Below the pieces are notes generated by a model. The model saw only the letters and a program-made list of their open reading frames with translations, was not told the origin of the DNA and searched no databases. Below, one piece after another: positions 3,639 to 28,858 of a stretch of DNA of 30,204 nucleotides. Positions within the stretch are counted from its first letter, which is position 1. Every line of letters begins with the position of its first letter. Source of the stretch: a virus. The stretch lies in IMG/VR virus record IMGVR_UViG_3300015194_000010, positions 1 through 30,204 of that record; one strand, 5' to 3'. Both the position numbers and the translations under genes were made by a program.

Positions 3639-4136
3639 ATGACCGCTTATCTTAAAAATGCCCCCGTAGGTTTCGCCGGAGACGTGTCCCGTCCCGACGT
3701 TTCCGTCATCGCGCCTGCGGCTCTCGTCGCTCTCGCTTCCGTTTACGTTCAGCGCTTCGGCGAAGCCATGCGCTACGTGACCGGCGGAATCCAGCAGTGG
3801 ACGACCGGCCTCACGAAGGCAGCGTTCGCGGGCGTCCTCATTCGCGAAGTCCCCGGCATCTCGGGTTCTTCGGTCGATGAAAATATTCCGAACCCGGACC
3901 AAGTCGGGGGATTAATGACCTCCGGTTTCGTCATCGTCAAGTGCACGGCCGGAACGCCTGCGCGGGGCGGCGTCGTCTACGTCCGTATCGTTTCCGCGAC
4001 TGATCGCCCCATTGGTGCGTTCGAAGCGGATTCCGATTCCACGAACAGCGTCGCGCTCGACGCGAACCAGGCGGAATGGGCCACGGACGGCAAAGATGTC
4101 GACGGCATGGCGGAACTCCGGTTAGTCGCGAACTAA
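3639..4136 (+). CDS. Capsid cement/decoration protein (gp24-like)
   Basis: This 165-residue protein lies between the DUF2213 gene and the major capsid gene, the usual place of the structural cement protein in DUF2184 phages. The start at 3639 has AAAGAGGAG upstream; a longer frame overlapping the previous gene is rejected. Features include an N-terminal MTAYLKNAPVGFAGDVSRPD, a Gly-rich middle with GVLIREVPGISG, and CTAGTPARGGVVYVRI near residue 105. These are compatible with the beta-barrel proteins that clamp capsomers from outside. Family assignment rests on context plus general sequence resemblance. Confidence 0.7.
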   Translation: MTAYLKNAPVGFAGDVSRPDVSVIAPAALVALASVYVQRFGEAMRYVTGGIQQWTTGLTKAAFAGVLIREVPGISGSSVDENIPNPDQVGGLMTSGFVIVKCTAGTPARGGVVYVRIVSATDRPIGAFEADSDSTNSVALDANQAEWATDGKDVDGMAELRLVAN

Positions 4137-4175
4137 GAAAATCTTTCAAACCCTTTCAGAGAGGATCTCTTCAAT

Positions 4176-5156
4176 ATGAGAAACAGACTCCAGCCCCGCC
4201 CCCGTCCGCACCGTACCCGGGATAGCCAGCTGGCTTACTTCCTCAACCAGTTGGAGAACTTCGATCCGAAGCTCCACGAACCGTTGGTCAGCGTGACCTG
4301 GGGTCGGGACATCAACCTGCGCCCTGGCATCACGATGGAGTTCGAATCGACGAGCTTCACGCGCCAGAGCTTCGGCGGCGCCGGTTCTCTCCAGAACTCC
4401 GTGGGTAACATGCCCTGGATTTCTCCGGAGACGAGTGCGATCCTCGGAGTCTCGGTCAATGGCGAGAAGCTGTTGAAGCCTCTCCGTCCTCTCGCTCGCG
4501 AGATTTCCTATACGTCCATCGAGCTGAATCGTTCGCAACGGACGCAGCAGCCGATCGACGTTCAGAAGCTCTACGCGCTGAATCAGCTCTACCAGATGAA
4601 CACCGACCAGATGGTGTACATCGGTTCGGCCGATGTCGGCGCGACGGGCCTCATCAACGACGCCGACGTCACCGCGACGACCGTCGCGAACGGCGTTTCG
4701 GGATCTCCGCTCTGGATCAACAAGACCCCGCCGGAGATGCTGAAGGACGTCGACACATTACTCAACGGCTCGTGGGCCGCTTCCGCATATTCGGTTCTCC
4801 CCTCGAAGCTGCTCCTGCCGCCCGCGCAGTATTCGTATCTCGCGTCTCAGCTCATCAGCTCGGCCGGAAACTCGTCCGTCCTGAAGTTCCTCTCCGAGAA
4901 CTCGATCGCGAACAACGTCAACGGCCGTCCTCTCGACATCCAGCCCCTCAAGTGGTTGCCGGGCGCGGGCGTCGACGGAACCGACCGCATGATGGTCTAT
5001 ACGAACGAACTCGACCGGGTTCGTTTCCCCATGGTGCCTATCCGTCGCGAGACGGCGTACTACCAGGGAATCCGCTTCGCCGCTCCCTACGTCTGGGCGT
5101 TCGGCGAAATGGAGTTCGTGTATCCGGAAACGGCCAGATATGCGGACGGAATCTAA
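4176..5156 (+). CDS. Major capsid protein (DUF2184)
   Basis: This 326-residue protein is the main shell protein. It has the DUF2184 pattern: an N-terminal FLNQLENFDPKLHEP block, the middle AREISYTSIELNRSQ, QPIDVQKLYALNQLYQMNTD, and a C-terminal part with RFPMVPIRRETAYYQGIRFA followed by YVWAFGEMEFVYPET. The C-terminal motif (R-x-P-hydrophobic ... Y-x-G) is the best marker of this HK97-fold group. A strong AGAGAGGA lies upstream of the ATG, fitting the high expression expected. It stands directly after the cement protein. Confidence 0.92.
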   Translation: MRNRLQPRPRPHRTRDSQLAYFLNQLENFDPKLHEPLVSVTWGRDINLRPGITMEFESTSFTRQSFGGAGSLQNSVGNMPWISPETSAILGVSVNGEKLLKPLRPLAREISYTSIELNRSQRTQQPIDVQKLYALNQLYQMNTDQMVYIGSADVGATGLINDADVTATTVANGVSGSPLWINKTPPEMLKDVDTLLNGSWAASAYSVLPSKLLLPPAQYSYLASQLISSAGNSSVLKFLSENSIANNVNGRPLDIQPLKWLPGAGVDGTDRMMVYTNELDRVRFPMVPIRRETAYYQGIRFAAPYVWAFGEMEFVYPETARYADGI

Positions 5157-23107: not shown

Positions 23108-23326
23108 TCATTCAGACTTTATCTTCTTCCGGCTCTCGTGAGTCCGCAAGTGTCTCGCGAAGGCGACGAGCGCTCGGATTTCCTTCGGGCTCAGGAGGAA
23201 ATCCCCCGGCGGCTTCACGAGTACTTTCCGGCAGTCGAGACAGACCGTCAGATGACCGCCCGCTTTCAGCGCGAAGACTACCCGATCGTGGGGCGGGCAC
23301 CGTGTCAAGCTCGGCGCTTTCGTCAT
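23108..23326 (-). CDS. Small Cys/His-containing protein (zinc-ribbon-like)
   Basis: The ATG overlaps the polymerase stop codon (ATGA), which decides this start over a longer frame. The 72-residue product begins MTKAPSLTRCPPHDRVVFAL and contains C-x3-H, then H-x3-C-x2-C (GGHLTVCLDCRKVLV), which could bind one zinc ion. The end is basic. Such small zinc proteins are frequent near phage polymerases, but no role is known. Confidence 0.7.
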   Translation of the reverse strand: MTKAPSLTRCPPHDRVVFALKAGGHLTVCLDCRKVLVKPPGDFLLSPKEIRALVAFARHLRTHESRKKIKSE

Positions 23327-26300
23327 TTCCGGTACCGAGGGCCGACCCAGCCCTTCGCCTCTACGGGGAGCCCCGGAGCCCACGAGGGGATCTCGCAGAG
23401 AATCTTCACGAACTCTTTCAGAGACCCCTCGCCCTTCTTCCGCTCGCAGATCCCTTCGTCGTAGACTTCGAGGAGCGGCCGGTACCCGCGCTTCTCCAGC
23501 CGCAGCAGGGCGGGGAGCATCAGGTCGCGCGCGGTCGCCTGCGTACAGTTATGAACGAGGACCGGGCCTTCCTCGGTCAGGATCATAAAACGACTACGCG
23601 GGCCGCAGTTCTTCAGGTCGAAGACGGGCTCGACCTTTCCGGTAGATTTCCACGACCTGCTCGGGGCTTTTTCCATTTTTAAGATGAAAGGCGATCGCAT
23701 TATAGCTCGCCCATCCCGGGCAGAATCGGTCCCAGAAATCGCAGAAGGAGATCGTTTCTCCCCGGAAACTGAGGTATCGAGTAGACCGTCGATTTCGGCA
23801 ATTAATTTTCCGATCCACGAGGCGCAGATTCCCGGGCTCGTAGTTTCCCTCATTATTTCGCCGGTCCAGGTCGAGACCTTTTTTATCCCAGTCTGAAAGC
23901 GTTTTAATATACAGAAGAAAAACCTTTCGATCTTTCCTCCACGGCGGATGAACCCGGACTCCTCGCCCTCCGTAGTTCGGAAAAGTCTTCGCCTTTCGGT
24001 TATGACATCGCGACACCATTCCGGTGTAACGATGGAGCCAGACGGCCAGAAGTTCGGGATCAGATATGATCTCCTGGTATCCTCGATTCGCCGCCCGACT
24101 CCTCCCCGCTTTCTGGTGTCCGCATTTCTGACAGCGTAGAGAATGCTCTCGGTAGAGACTCCGATTGGTGACGGGTATCTCGACCCCGCAACGGCAACGA
24201 CAGAGAGTTTTTCCGCCATTCCCGACGGCTGCCGAAAGGACGACGAGACCGCCGAACGTCGCCCCGACTTTAGGGCTTCGTCCGTAAGTCGTTCGTCCAA
24301 GTGAATCGCTTTTCGCCACGAGCCGCCAACGAGAACCAAGTGGTCCGGCGTGAGGCTGACTCCCAGCCATTCCCCAGTTTCTTTTTCCCCTCGATAGAGA
24401 AGTCCTCCGTGCCTTGTCCATTCTTCTCCGTCCCAGATTAAATCGTCTTCGGTCACGTCGATTATTCTTTTTACCCCATTCGACGTGAAGACCAGAGTTC
24501 TAGCAGCGAGACAATTTTCCGTCAAGGTCCCGCCCCAGCTTCTCTCCAGGACCCATTTCTTCGTCTTCGAATCGACAGCCCAGAATTCTAGGGTCTTCAT
24601 CGGCTCCGTCCAGCAGGTCTCCGACGTGACGGTGACCGTGCCGTCGGCGTTCTCGGTCTCCGTGATCTTCTCGTACTCGCGGACTCTCCAGGAAATCTGA
24701 GGCTCCCGGTAAGCGAGAGGTCTTCCTGATGGAAGCTCTATCCAGAGGAATCGGTCCTTCAGGAAAAGTTTACAGCGCCCGGCCTTGAAAGTTTTCCCAG
24801 GATTTTCGACAGCCGAAACAGCGGCGGCCTCCAGAGTTTTCCAAAGCGCGGGAACCGCCGCATGAGCTTTTCGGTAGTCGTGGACGGATTTCGTGGACTG
24901 CTTCAGCGACAGTTTCAAAAGGTACGGCGGATTCGCCGCTGTCTTCTGAAACTTCGGCGGACCCATACCGAAGCCGCAACCAAGAATCTCCGCTTTCGCG
25001 AGCTGTCGGGCATCGAGCGCCCAGCGTTCCCCGCGCTCGACGGCTCGCTCGACCTCCTCGTAGGTCTTCCCCGTATCGGCGGCAGCCTGGTAGATATAGG
25101 GATCTTTTCCGCTCCGGAGAATCTGAAGGCCCGCTTCGTTCCCGGCCAACCACCAGAGGACGGCAACTTCGACCTTCGAAAAGTCCGCGACGAAAAGTTC
25201 CCAGCCCTCGGACGGGATGATCATGTTCCGCAGGACGGAAGAGAAGAGAATCCCGAGGGCGTCGCCGTAGAGGAGGCGAAGCATCTCCGGATCGCATTCG
25301 ACGACGTTCTCGACGGCGGCGTAAGGGCGCGCGGGATCGACCGTGAGAAGGCCGCGCGGGAAATTATAGGGATTGATGCCGGTCCCGGCCGAACGCCCGG
25401 TACTCGCACCATGATAGAGAAGGATGTCCCGGACGCGGTCGTCATCGCCTGCGCGCGCGAGAAAGCTCTGATACTTCTTCGTGCTCGCTAACGAGAGGGC
25501 CTGACGAATCTGAAGGAGCCGCTTCATGTCGTCCGACAGGTCGAAACCGTCGAGCTTATCCTGGACGGTATTTTTCTGAAGGTTCGGGATCTCGACCCCT
25601 TCGAGAGCGAGGAACTCGAAGATGGATTTCCGGGAATGCGGCGACTTGACGAGCCCCATGGTGAGGCGGTCCAGCTCTTTTAATTTCCGCGTGCCTTCTG
25701 TTTCCATGATATCGACGATCTTCTTCACGGTCGGGATGTCGACGCGCAGGCCGCGCCAGTTCATCCGCTGATTCATGTGCCAGATTTCCTGTTCCTCCGG
25801 GATTAGATCCGGGAGCGCGTCGTCGAGCGCTTCCTCGGCGAGCACGTCGATTTTGCAGTATTCGTAGAGCACGTTCCAGACGGCCGGGTCCGCGTCGGGC
25901 TCGATAAATTCCGGCGGACAGGGAACCCGGGCCTCGATAAATTTCTTCTGCTTCGGCGTGAGCTTCTTCCCGGCGGCGGTCCGCTTGCCGATTTCCAGAT
26001 TCATCTTATGCCAGGCGTTCCACTCGCGCGAGGGCTTACAGGTTCGGAGCATAGCTTGATACCCGCGAAAGTCTTTTTGAACCGCCAAATTCAAAGCCTC
26101 TCCGGCTCCTGCTAGATTTCTCGGAAGGGCGCAAGCTGCGGCTTTCGCCGCTGTACACCGAAAAAGTTCCAGAGGATAGTCGGGCCAACCGAGTCTCTTC
26201 ACCAGAATATTGAAGTACAGGCATTTTTCGAAGAAGGCATTATGAGAGGAGAATTCGTATCTTTCTAGGATCGCTTTCTTCCAAGCGTCGCGGATCTCGC

Positions 26301-26487
26301 GAGGAAGTTTCGCCCAAGGAGTGTTTATCAGTTTGAAATCGAGGAAATAAATTTTCGGGTCGCCGTGAAATTTGAAGACGAAACAGGTCGGTTGAGTAGA
26401 CTTATCAAGGCTGTACTTATAGGCACCCTCTTTTTTCAGGTCAGACCGACTCCTCGACTCAAAGTCTCCGGTCAAGCGGCGTTTCAT
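23323..26487 (-). CDS. Family A DNA polymerase with 3'-5' exonuclease, interrupted by an intein
   Basis: This is the phage replicative polymerase, 1054 codons, or 732 residues after removal of a 322-residue intein. Exonuclease motifs are GDFESRS (D8, E10), SSHNAFFEK (~80-88) and YCKIDV (~210). Polymerase motif A is VADFSKVEV (Asp ~435). Motif B is RQLAKAEILGCGFGMGPPKF (~494). Motif C is EVYDEG (~1009), lying after the intein. The intein splits LTEN from CTQATARDLM in the conserved E-N-x-x-Q-A-x-A-R-D helix. The ATG at 26487 has AGAGG 7 bases upstream and overlaps the stop of a 37-codon gene; a GTG 12 codons earlier is rejected. Confidence 0.93.
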   Translation of the reverse strand: MKRRLTGDFESRSRSDLKKEGAYKYSLDKSTQPTCFVFKFHGDPKIYFLDFKLINTPWAKLPREIRDAWKKAILERYEFSSHNAFFEKCLYFNILVKRLGWPDYPLELFRCTAAKAAACALPRNLAGAGEALNLAVQKDFRGYQAMLRTCKPSREWNAWHKMNLEIGKRTAAGKKLTPKQKKFIEARVPCPPEFIEPDADPAVWNVLYEYCKIDVLAEEALDDALPDLIPEEQEIWHMNQRMNWRGLRVDIPTVKKIVDIMETEGTRKLKELDRLTMGLVKSPHSRKSIFEFLALEGVEIPNLQKNTVQDKLDGFDLSDDMKRLLQIRQALSLASTKKYQSFLARAGDDDRVRDILLYHGASTGRSAGTGINPYNFPRGLLTVDPARPYAAVENVVECDPEMLRLLYGDALGILFSSVLRNMIIPSEGWELFVADFSKVEVAVLWWLAGNEAGLQILRSGKDPYIYQAAADTGKTYEEVERAVERGERWALDARQLAKAEILGCGFGMGPPKFQKTAANPPYLLKLSLKQSTKSVHDYRKAHAAVPALWKTLEAAAVSAVENPGKTFKAGRCKLFLKDRFLWIELPSGRPLAYREPQISWRVREYEKITETENADGTVTVTSETCWTEPMKTLEFWAVDSKTKKWVLERSWGGTLTENCLAARTLVFTSNGVKRIIDVTEDDLIWDGEEWTRHGGLLYRGEKETGEWLGVSLTPDHLVLVGGSWRKAIHLDERLTDEALKSGRRSAVSSSFRQPSGMAEKLSVVAVAGSRYPSPIGVSTESILYAVRNADTRKRGGVGRRIEDTRRSYLIPNFWPSGSIVTPEWCRDVITERRRLFRTTEGEESGFIRRGGKIERFFFCILKRFQTGIKKVSTWTGEIMRETTSPGICASWIGKLIAEIDGLLDTSVSGEKRSPSAISGTDSARDGRAIMRSPFILKMEKAPSRSWKSTGKVEPVFDLKNCGPRSRFMILTEEGPVLVHNCTQATARDLMLPALLRLEKRGYRPLLEVYDEGICERKKGEGSLKEFVKILCEIPSWAPGLPVEAKGWVGPRYRK
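23548..24513 (-). mobile_element. Intein in the DNA polymerase, with nested out-of-frame endonuclease gene
   Basis: The intein spans 322 in-frame codons. Block A begins CLAARTLVFTSNGVKRIIDV at the Cys1 codon (24511-24513). Block B is GVSLTPDHLVLVGGSW, with the T-x-x-H motif. Block F is VEPVFDLKNCGPRSRFMI. Block G is GPVLVHN followed by extein Cys. All residues needed for splicing (Cys1, block B His, penultimate His, terminal Asn, Cys+1) are present. Between the blocks the intein frame is Arg/Ser-rich without recognisable domain, because the endonuclease is encoded there in another frame. Insertion is at the active-site region, the usual place for inteins in family A polymerases. Confidence 0.9.
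23594..24421 (-). CDS. HNH-type homing endonuclease encoded inside the intein in a different frame
   Basis: This 275-codon frame lies wholly inside the intein, on the same strand but out of frame with it. Its ATG has GGAG 4 bases upstream. Residues ~43-103 form a four-Cys zinc module (VGATFGGLVVLSAAVGNGG; C74, C76/C78, C97, C100) as in phage HNH proteins. Residues ~129-212 carry WLHRYTGMVSRCHNRK, YGGRGVRV and LDRRNNEGNYEPGNLRLVDR then NCRNRR, the pattern of the phage HNH group with L-D-R-x-x-N-x-G-x-Y-x-x-x-N. The C-terminal NGKSPEQVVEIYR is a DNA-binding-like tail. The first ~38 codons merely shadow intein block B, so a later GTG start is possible. Confidence 0.83.
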   Translation of the reverse strand: MDKARRTSLSRGKRNWGMAGSQPHAGPLGSRWRLVAKSDSLGRTTYGRSPKVGATFGGLVVLSAAVGNGGKTLCRCRCGVEIPVTNRSLYREHSLRCQKCGHQKAGRSRAANRGYQEIISDPELLAVWLHRYTGMVSRCHNRKAKTFPNYGGRGVRVHPPWRKDRKVFLLYIKTLSDWDKKGLDLDRRNNEGNYEPGNLRLVDRKINCRNRRSTRYLSFRGETISFCDFWDRFCPGWASYNAIAFHLKNGKSPEQVVEIYRKGRARLRPEELRPA

Positions 26488-26597
26488 CGACGCGCCTCTG
26501 CCTGTTCCTTCCAGGTCTGCCACGCAAGACGCGGCGGAAGCCCCGTCGACCGCATGAACGTCCTGAAGCAGAGACGGCAGACGAGCGCGTAGGTCAC
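26484..26597 (-). CDS. 37-residue Cys-containing protein between membrane protein and polymerase
   Basis: A GTG overlapping the TGA of the upstream membrane protein gene (GTGA) opens a 37-codon frame. Its TGA in turn overlaps the polymerase ATG (ATGA). Both junctions use the overlap style seen throughout this arm, so the frame very likely is a gene. The product has C-x2-C near its start (ALVCRLCFRTFMRS) and a basic, Trp-containing C-terminal half (WQTWKEQAEARR). The C-x2-C could be half of a zinc site. It is too short to classify. Confidence 0.68.
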   Translation of the reverse strand: MTYALVCRLCFRTFMRSTGLPPRLAWQTWKEQAEARR

Positions 26598-27315: not shown

Positions 27316-27945
27316 CTATAAGAAATCCCCTTCAGCGTCGTCCGCATCCTCGTCCTCGTCAGCGGAGACGACGGGCGCGAAGACCTGCTCGACCGGCTTC
27401 TTGCCGCCGAAGGCTTTCCCGTCCCGGAGTTTCTGGACGTGGTCCAGGATGAAGCCGACGCCCTGTTTCGATCCGAACTCCCAGACGTAGGCGTAGATGT
27501 ACGCGCGCGCGTAGCAGCCAGGGTAGAGAACGGAGGCTTCCGTGATAGGAACCCCTTTCGCGTCGACGATGCCGGGGCGCTGGTCTTCGCCGGTCGAAGC
27601 CTTGATCGCCCAGTGTCCCGGATAGCCCGGTTTATCGGCGTATTTTTTCGCGTCGCCGTCCGAGGTCGGGGATTCGAGTTCTTCCGGGAAATTCTCCTCG
27701 GACCCGAAATAGGCGAGCTTCGCGGCCTTCATGGCGGAGACGAGCTTGCGGGGTTTCCCGTCAATAGTCTGCCCGATGACGGGAGCGTCTTTAGGGAAGA
27801 GCATGGTGACGGAGAACTTCTTTTTCGAAGCCGTGTCCATCGCGTGCGCTTCGAAGAGATGCGGATAACTGACCCGGAACTCGGGCGTGATGATCCGGCA
27901 TTTCGCTTTCTGTTCGTCGCTGATTTTCGGTCTTTTCGCTACCAT
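27316..27945 (-). CDS. Single-strand DNA-binding protein (DUF2815)
   Basis: This 209-residue protein matches the DUF2815 group. There is RIITPEFRVSYPHLFEAHAM, then KFSVTMLFPKDAP, a middle with KPGYPGHWAIKAST and PGIVDAKG, CYARAYIYAYVWEFGSKQGV and GFILDHVQKLRDGKAFGG. It ends in an acidic tail plus F-L (ADEDEDADDAEGDFL), as in many SSBs that recruit partners through it. AAAGGAG lies upstream. It is encoded next to the DUF2800 nuclease, the usual partner gene, and would protect single strands at the replication fork or during recombination. Confidence 0.88.
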   Translation of the reverse strand: MVAKRPKISDEQKAKCRIITPEFRVSYPHLFEAHAMDTASKKKFSVTMLFPKDAPVIGQTIDGKPRKLVSAMKAAKLAYFGSEENFPEELESPTSDGDAKKYADKPGYPGHWAIKASTGEDQRPGIVDAKGVPITEASVLYPGCYARAYIYAYVWEFGSKQGVGFILDHVQKLRDGKAFGGKKPVEQVFAPVVSADEDEDADDAEGDFL

Positions 27946-27994: not shown

Positions 27995-28858
27995 CTATAT
28001 CCGGGGCTCGACGTTTGTAAATATATTTCCAGCCTCTTCGCGCTTCTTCGCGAGCTTCAGAGGACAGATACTTTTCGCCTTGCAGAAAAAACAGTACTGC
28101 CCCTCGACGAAAGTCTCGGGCTCCTTCTTCGCGCGCTCGACGCCGCGCCGGAATTTCTCGACGTAAGCCCGCGCGTTCGTTATCGGGAACTCCCAGAAGA
28201 CCGGGCCGTCGTAACCGCGCGAGCGAGGCTGAACGATCCAGAGCCGGACCCTGGAAAAGTTCCACTGGTATTTCGCCGCGAGACCTACACCATAGAAAAT
28301 GAGCTGGAGATTCTCTTTCGGCGAGACCGTCCAGCTCCCGTACTTATAGTCGAAAACGTGGAGGGTCCCGAAATGGTCGACGACCGCGCCGTCGAATGTT
28401 CCGAACATTTCGGGGTCGATGAAGTCGAGGTATACGCGCGACTCGACCAGGCACTCGGAGCCGGGCGTCCGCCTATGAAGGCCGACGATAAACTTGGTGG
28501 TCTGTACGGCGTGCTGGAACTTTTCCAGGCCCGCGCGAGCGAGCGTCTCGCGAGTCTCCGCTAGGACCGCTTCCGAATTCCCGGAGAGTTCTATCTTCAT
28601 CACGGCCTCCAGGACCTCGTGGGCTTGAGTCCCCTCGGCTGCGGCGGCCGAGGACTTATCCGGAAGCCCTTCCGAGAGAGCGACCGACCCCGGGCAGCTC
28701 ATCCATCTCTCGGCCCCCGAAGCGGCGTATTTCGAATGCGCCCTTTCCGCGTGGCCCGGGCCCGCCAAGCCAGCAGTCGGCCCGGGACCGCGCGGAGTGT
28801 GTTGCGGGTACTCGTGTTGTTTTCGAGCGAGAAGGAGTTTTAGAAACGGGTCGGTCAT
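27995..28858 (-). CDS. DUF2800 nuclease (PD-(D/E)XK, Cas4/RecB-like)
   Basis: This 287-residue protein is of the DUF2800 type. SKYAASGAERWMSCPGSVAL (with C55) opens the fold. FGTFDGAVVDHF (D156) and LHVFDYKYG (D170-x-K172) are nuclease motifs II and III. Q184 in ENLQLIFYGVGL is the conserved Q-L-x-x-Y motif. C256, C259 and C265 near the C-terminus, together with C55, could hold an iron-sulfur cluster as in Cas4/AddB-type nucleases. Its ATG overlaps the previous stop. It probably acts in recombination together with the SSB. Confidence 0.87.
   Translation of the reverse strand: MTDPFLKLLLARKQHEYPQHTPRGPGPTAGLAGPGHAERAHSKYAASGAERWMSCPGSVALSEGLPDKSSAAAAEGTQAHEVLEAVMKIELSGNSEAVLAETRETLARAGLEKFQHAVQTTKFIVGLHRRTPGSECLVESRVYLDFIDPEMFGTFDGAVVDHFGTLHVFDYKYGSWTVSPKENLQLIFYGVGLAAKYQWNFSRVRLWIVQPRSRGYDGPVFWEFPITNARAYVEKFRRGVERAKKEPETFVEGQYCFFCKAKSICPLKLAKKREEAGNIFTNVEPRI

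Follow-up and report, generated by a model that had tools for sequence, protein, structure and literature searches.

The 30,204-base stretch analysed here (the window) is a complete IMG/VR virus record, IMGVR_UViG_3300015194_000010, of a tailed phage with head, tail-sheath and baseplate genes. We found that an intein is inserted in its phage family-A (PolA-type) DNA polymerase gene, and that a second open reading frame (ORF), encoding an HNH endonuclease, lies within this intein on the same strand in another frame. The polymerase ORF matches phrog_17 DNA polymerase (E=8e-75), its C-terminal extein matches phrog_7766 (E=6e-32), and the frame of the intein-bearing (host) gene continues without a break across the entire insert. 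The features of the locus are as follows.

23323..26523, minus strand: host gene, PolA-type DNA polymerase ORF of 1066 aa with the intein (PHROG matches)
23548..24513, minus strand: intein of 322 codons in the polymerase frame, Cys1 to Asn (blocks in the translation; N and C profile matches in one ORF)
24298..24513, minus strand: N-terminal splicing half, Hint-N, with blocks A and B, 72 codons (intN profile E=1e-29; predicted local distance difference test score, pLDDT, about 97)
23548..23637, minus strand: C-terminal splicing half with blocks F and G, ...VFDLKNCGPRSRF...VHN (intC profile E=3e-16; pLDDT about 97)
23594..24421, minus strand: nested HNH endonuclease ORF of 275 codons, +2 (= -1) relative to the intein frame (phrog_374; HNH profile E=5e-94)
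23792..24271, minus strand: confidently folded HNH part, residues 51-210 (AlphaFold2 pLDDT mostly >90; invariant columns in 31 relatives)
24419..24421, minus strand: probable ATG start of the nested HNH ORF (the same intein position, nt 92, has ATG in most +2 loci)
24426..24429, minus strand: GGAG, a Shine-Dalgarno (SD)-like sequence 4 nt 5' of the ATG at 24421 (sequence; enrichment in relatives)

The window sequence itself is among those from which the intN, intC and HNH profiles behind these E values were built.

The polymerase intein and the frame nested in it

An initial annotation of this DNA had described an HNH gene out of frame inside a genuine intein whose own frame remains open, and the frames, the PHROG homology and the Hint fold all agree with that description. 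The splicing blocks (C1...TPDH...VFDLKNCGPRSRF...VHN/C, with the slash at the end of the intein) are located entirely in the polymerase frame, as had been proposed, and the intein end VHN is followed by an extein Cys (23545-23547). Along the 966 nt of the intein, 0 stops occur in the polymerase frame and 17 in the third frame; the HNH frame has an open stretch of 301 codons. The host-frame stretch common with the HNH ORF comprises about 276 codons, 219 of which lie between the splicing blocks, a small correction to the more than 240 stop-free codons first noted; the ends of the HNH ORF overlap both splicing halves.

AlphaFold2, run on the intein frame with 26 sequences, gives a pLDDT of about 97 for residues 1-90 and 282-322 and of about 35 for the middle, most of residues 93-280 being below 50, which fits the earlier observation that the middle has no recognisable domain in this frame. 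The best 10 and nearly all PDB matches found by Foldseek with the intein model are inteins (DnaX, DnaB, RecA and gp41-1), with probabilities up to 1.00 and E values of 0.002-0.02. By its host-frame splicing residues, its Hint/horseshoe fold and its exact absence in relatives, the insert is an intein, with splicing itself as a prediction. The endonuclease stands at +2 instead of in the frame of the splicing blocks, where a canonical large intein has it, and the two halves share one continuous ORF instead of lying on separate ORFs as in a split intein.

The HNH frame matches PHROG families named 'HNH endonuclease', phrog_374 (E=4e-33) and phrog_3377 (E=4e-23), and also phrog_8790 and phrog_2081. 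Its AlphaFold2 model (31 sequences) has a mean pLDDT of 78.9, with residues 51-210 mostly above 90 and the first 44 at about 42; the models of the two frames mirror each other. The folded part holds a CxC/CxxC module and the YGGRG and LDRxxNxGxYEPGN motifs; among 31 relatives, the invariant positions are CxC, CxxC, YGxRG, R187, Y194, N198 and N210, and the window HNH retains the invariant motifs. The 275-codon ORF, the LDRxxNxGxY core and the GGAG before its ATG had all been listed in the initial annotation and were found as described. The first 44 or so residues are an out-of-frame reading of the intein N half, and the GGAG and the ATG at 24421 both fall within the conserved intein motif W-D-G-E-E-W. 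Since these residues are of low confidence in the model, the start is ambiguous: the true one may be the ATG at 24421, the ATG at 24370 or a later codon such as the GTG at 24319. Between the splicing blocks, the G+C contents at the three codon positions of the HNH frame are 0.58/0.48/0.55 and those of the intein frame 0.48/0.55/0.58, compared with 0.58/0.42/0.70 in the polymerase extein; the HNH frame is therefore favoured as the constrained one.

Recurrence in relatives and selection on the two frames

A whole-polymerase pattern search of IMG/VR returned no relative, and relatives were gathered instead with the HNH and the intein N-block as queries. A tblastn search with the intein matched 193 phage records, of which 158 were covered to at least 80%, and the HNH query matched the same places; the two frames, searched separately as had been suggested, thus find the same phage loci. 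The matched records belong to Jerseyvirus, Kagunavirus and Dhillonvirus phages of Salmonella and E. coli, Sodalis phage SO-1, Shigella phage EP23, EBPR siphovirus 2, Vibrio phage 97.13 and Pseudomonas phage MR14. The fetched loci were scanned with profiles for the intein N half, the intein C half and the HNH. At 75 loci from phage isolates and IMG/VR contigs, both intein halves lie in one open ORF with the HNH between them and never in frame. The HNH offset is +2 throughout one lineage, comprising the window, the phages listed above and many IMG/VR contigs, and +1 in all the other lineages, such as APSE-5, Caulobacter phage KcrB, Shewanella phage SFCi1, the helicase intein at locus L027 and more. 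The insertion points in PolA vary (e.g. GKA/CELG, GKTTILG/CGYG, ELA/CGFG, EN/CTQA and GGKL/CENV), and helicase-type genes are also hit.

A sample collected by the N-block only, whose pattern was derived from known cases and which is not bias-free for that reason, contains 80 inteins: 74 carry an HNH (59 at +2, 15 at +1 and 0 in frame), the host frame is open in 72, five are mini-inteins and one is a fractured gene with another enzyme. Clustered at about 75% nucleotide identity, this sample yields 53 clusters, 48 of them nested and open. Bacterial genomes (records of Bacillota, Spirochaetes, Acidobacteria and Pseudomonadota) provide 19 inteins, and 14 of these hold an HNH, 0 in frame and all with the host frame open. 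The sets of 75, 80 and 19 loci overlap in part, and among their open-host-frame inteins the count of in-frame HNHs is 0. Relatives with the HNH in frame and compensating indels had been named at the outset as findings that would overturn the reading; we found none of either, and apart from SS3e (below) the +2 or +1 offset is fixed across very divergent phages from independent assemblies. Judged by sequence, the overlapping design is a recurrent one, found in well over 100 phage and prophage inteins, and we regard the two-frame architecture and its conservation as practically beyond doubt. What does not stand is the view of the window as a single oddity, because nesting is the norm in this intein family.

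An offset of 0 between the intein N part and the HNH stretch occurs only in Salmonella phage SS3e (L045 and L086; two records of one genome), where the frames are broken. SS3e is annotated with two polymerase genes and an HNH gene between them, and its frames shift inside the HNH; these shifts are probably old sequence errors, and possibly reflect a real fractured gene.

For the expected number of stops, synonymous HNH codons were permuted. Across 58 non-redundant loci, for which an open host frame was required (7 of 82 HNH-bearing intein places were left out), the overlap contains 0 intein-frame stops versus 263 expected, and the third frame contains 771 versus 734 expected. For comparison, 121 free-standing HNH genes of this family have on average 7.8 and 13.4 stops in their two other frames, which are stop-free in 1 and 2 of the genes, respectively. 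Synonymous and non-synonymous change, a comparison called for in the initial annotation, was measured from 586 isolated substitutions in 21 related pairs. The resulting ratio (omega) for the HNH frame was 0.10 (0.08-0.13) for changes that are non-synonymous in the intein frame and 0.07 for those synonymous there, and for the intein frame 0.96 (0.67-1.42) and 0.64 (0.47-0.92). Substitutions to a stop numbered 0 in either frame versus about 25 (intein) and 22 (HNH) expected, 892 of 1529 substitutions fall at HNH third positions, and the gaps in pairwise DNA alignments of relatives are all multiples of three. From the omega values and the absence of new stops, it appears that the HNH is kept as a working enzyme, and that in the intein frame the middle evolves almost neutrally, with hardly any constraint beyond its openness.

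Some further observations concern individual loci and other parts of the window. Two such inteins occur on each of three contigs: in L137 both are nested and complete, in L092 one is fractured and the other nested, and in L073 the second runs past the contig end. In the APSE-5 locus (L048), Rfam matches to isrK and C4 antisense RNA at 4121-4313 adjoin the antirepressor gene. The phrog_93 family ('endonuclease') matches the intein frame of the polymerase ORF at residues 689-892 (E=5e-6), and because the match includes the dual-coded middle, this family may have been built partly from such inteins. Two other replication genes of the window are also on the minus strand.

27316-27945, minus strand: Gp2.5-like single-stranded DNA-binding protein
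27995-28858, minus strand: exonuclease

Expression of the nested gene and rival explanations

An SD sequence (at least a 4-nt match) with an ATG precedes the HNH in 25 of 35 loci of the +2 class versus 5.3 expected, and in 18 of 23 loci of the +1 class versus 5.6, the expectation being obtained by synonymous shuffling of the host codons. In the +2 class the site is mostly located in the intein motif WDGxEW, and in the +1 class it is beside or just past the block-B motif PDHEV. Programmed ribosomal frameshifting from the polymerase frame would instead produce a polymerase-N/intein-N/HNH fusion, and it is compatible in principle with the +2 class, which corresponds to a -1 shift; the out-of-frame layout permits both routes. 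However, slippery heptamers for -1 frameshifting in the overlap upstream of the HNH were present in 3 of 35 loci versus 1.7 expected, which is no enrichment, and internal SD-start sites are enriched in both classes. The remaining classes need a +1 shift, and hence one frameshift mechanism would not serve all of them. We consider frameshifting unlikely; with SD-ATG sites enriched and slippery sites not, internal initiation appears to be the best-supported route to the HNH, which is very probably a functional, separately translated protein.

The HNH ORF could also be a dead relic or a coding accident, with the intein frame alone being important, and both the decayed HNH remnants in three relatives (L276, L282 and L283) and the unstructured first 44 residues of the window HNH would suit such a case. 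The chance of this is slight given the low HNH omega, the substitutions concentrated at HNH third positions, the avoidance of stops in both frames, and the invariant motifs and high-confidence fold retained by the window HNH. A sequencing or assembly artefact, in which two compensating indels conceal an HNH that is truly an in-frame intein domain, comes to mind for a metagenomic virus contig, and the broken SS3e frames are probably due to sequence errors. It was rejected as scarcely credible, since the offset does not vary among many independent genomes, with SS3e as the sole exception. Dozens of independent isolates and contigs have the identical +2 offset, about 158 GenBank phage records are matched by tblastn over most of the intein, and the gaps between relatives leave the frames intact. 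The GenBank record of Sodalis phage SO-1 notes a 'type I self-splicing intron' for gp38/gp39, which raises the possibility of an RNA-spliced group I intron carrying the HNH ORF. Yet the intein blocks and the open frame are conserved, and an intron would have no reason to avoid host-frame stops; this explanation, which we hold to be highly improbable, was rejected, as no Rfam intron match (ribozyme core) was found in the window or in four relatives.

Several points weigh against a separately made endonuclease that mobilises the intein. In the window alone, synonymous HNH shuffling keeps the intein frame open in 1.9% of trials (P=0.019), and the window by itself is only suggestive for this reason. 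Neither Pfam nor a Foldseek search of PDB folds gave a match to the HNH protein, whose HNH label is based on PHROG names and motifs, and a profile comparison with solved structures gave PacI as the sole match, a weak one (E=0.7). The SD of the window has a length of only 4 nt and a spacing of only 4 nt, and the conserved tryptophan codon of the intein accounts in part for the ATG of the +2 class. Moreover, no close intein-free neighbour of the window's phage was found, and mobility was seen in a relative.

With these points taken into account, we assign a high probability to the reading that this is a mobile intein and that its homing endonuclease comes from a separate nested gene with internal initiation. 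The polymerase frame would be translated through the entire insert, and the two terminal halves would form the splicing domain and excise the intein, with the roughly 200 codons between them serving as an unstructured linker that needs only freedom from stops. On the same mRNA, ribosomes would restart at the internal SD-ATG and produce a free HNH endonuclease in the other frame; this enzyme would cut an intein-free polymerase allele, into which repair would copy the intein. Internal initiation, splicing activity, cleavage of the empty site and homing are all steps that we infer, and homing of the whole intein by the nested HNH enzyme is likely.

Mobility, fractured forms and known systems

Salmonella phage nctD30 lacks exactly the 897-nt intein of phage LP31 and is 95.0% identical over 1202 nt to LP31 with the intein removed. 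Between LP31 (L039) and nctD30 (L313), 12 of the 60 nt before the insertion point differ versus 0-7 of 60 in the other intervals examined, a possible trace of co-conversion or of target-site change. The insertion site of the window is empty in PolA of Stenotrophomonas phage DLP4, where YGGMLVEN is joined to ITQA. Such sporadic and exact presence or absence is compatible with homing, and decayed forms with the intein frame kept would also fit a homing life cycle: the HNH is internally deleted to scraps in L276, L282 and L283, in which the intein frame is still open. Some relatives are mini-inteins with linkers of 35-57 residues.

In fractured loci L029, L030, L092 (1125-1909) and L291, one ORF carries the N-part of the polymerase with the intein N half and a separate ORF carries the intein C half with the remainder of the gene, an HNH ORF that overlaps being found between the halves; L291 is of the +2 class. 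In fractured locus L240 (2440-3700), the ORF between the halves encodes a GIY-YIG endonuclease (Pfam E=3e-10) in place of the HNH. Together, the sequences suggest a cycle from an empty site to a nested intein and then either to an intein that has lost its endonuclease or to one broken into split halves. The HNH tree, in which many forks are weakly supported and from which only at least two acquisitions are taken, shows three groups, namely one of +2 HNHs, a main one of +1 HNHs placed among free-standing HNHs, and another of +1 HNHs that includes the fractured cases; bacterial L294, classed as +1 by script, falls with the +2 group. Because the intein HNHs form at least two groups separate from each other relative to the free-standing HNHs, the nested arrangement probably arose more than once.

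Canonical large inteins carry a LAGLIDADG or HNH endonuclease in frame, as part of the spliced-out protein. The present elements resemble them in having Hint blocks at both ends and an endonuclease between, but here the enzyme is in another frame and outside the excised intein. Fractured genes with split inteins and an endonuclease gene between the intein halves were reportedly described by Dassa et al. in 2009. In those systems, splicing and endonuclease are reportedly likewise separate proteins, with the endonuclease gene between the halves; they consist of two genes joined by trans-splicing and set the endonuclease apart in space and not by frame, in contrast to the one continuous ORF with an overlapping endonuclease found here. 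Fractured versions of the same intein family do exist, namely the five loci described above. The fractured-gene work of Dassa et al. 2009 is cited in PMC10448857.

The nearest published case is the 'hidden HNH' of the ShiLan domain, which lies out of frame in a non-splicing insertion in a mycobacteriophage DNA methylase (Arsenault, Gosselin and Gogarten 2025, PMC11855218). Its authors found no splicing domain, and neither an intein nor an intron, detected no ribosome binding site and suggested leaderless GTG initiation (PMC11855218). ShiLan and the present elements share an out-of-frame HNH in an insertion that is stop-free in the host frame, and ShiLan is thought to home as a selfish element; unlike ShiLan, the elements here are true inteins with all splicing blocks, have a replication gene as their host and are enriched in SD-ATG sites. 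A 2025 bioRxiv preprint by Gosselin, Arsenault and Gogarten reportedly deals with actinobacteriophage inteins of 'non-canonical architecture' and, by its title, may hold related cases. That preprint is cited in PMC11855218 for overlapping reading frames. Our literature search turned up no out-of-frame endonuclease inside a splicing intein; the true-intein version differs from the published hidden HNH, and its priority is uncertain.

In GenBank, the nested ORF of SO-1 is listed as gp39, with the intron note, and among the isolate records opened, only SO-1 gives the nested ORF its own gene beside an intact polymerase gene; the Ent1 record annotates the intein with splicing domains only. Annotation mostly overlooks these nested endonucleases. 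Whether this is a widespread phage and prophage intein family that has its homing endonuclease solely as a nested out-of-frame gene, reached the arrangement at least twice independently, and is in its nested form the source of mini-inteins and fractured split inteins, is in our judgement evenly balanced. The design would separate splicing from homing at the level of the reading frame, with a polymerase and an endonuclease obtained from one stretch of DNA under independent translation control. These loci constitute a large natural set of functional overlapping genes, with one frame tight, the other merely open, and matched free-standing controls, and they would provide a concrete and testable route by which a continuous intein could become a split one in a fractured gene.
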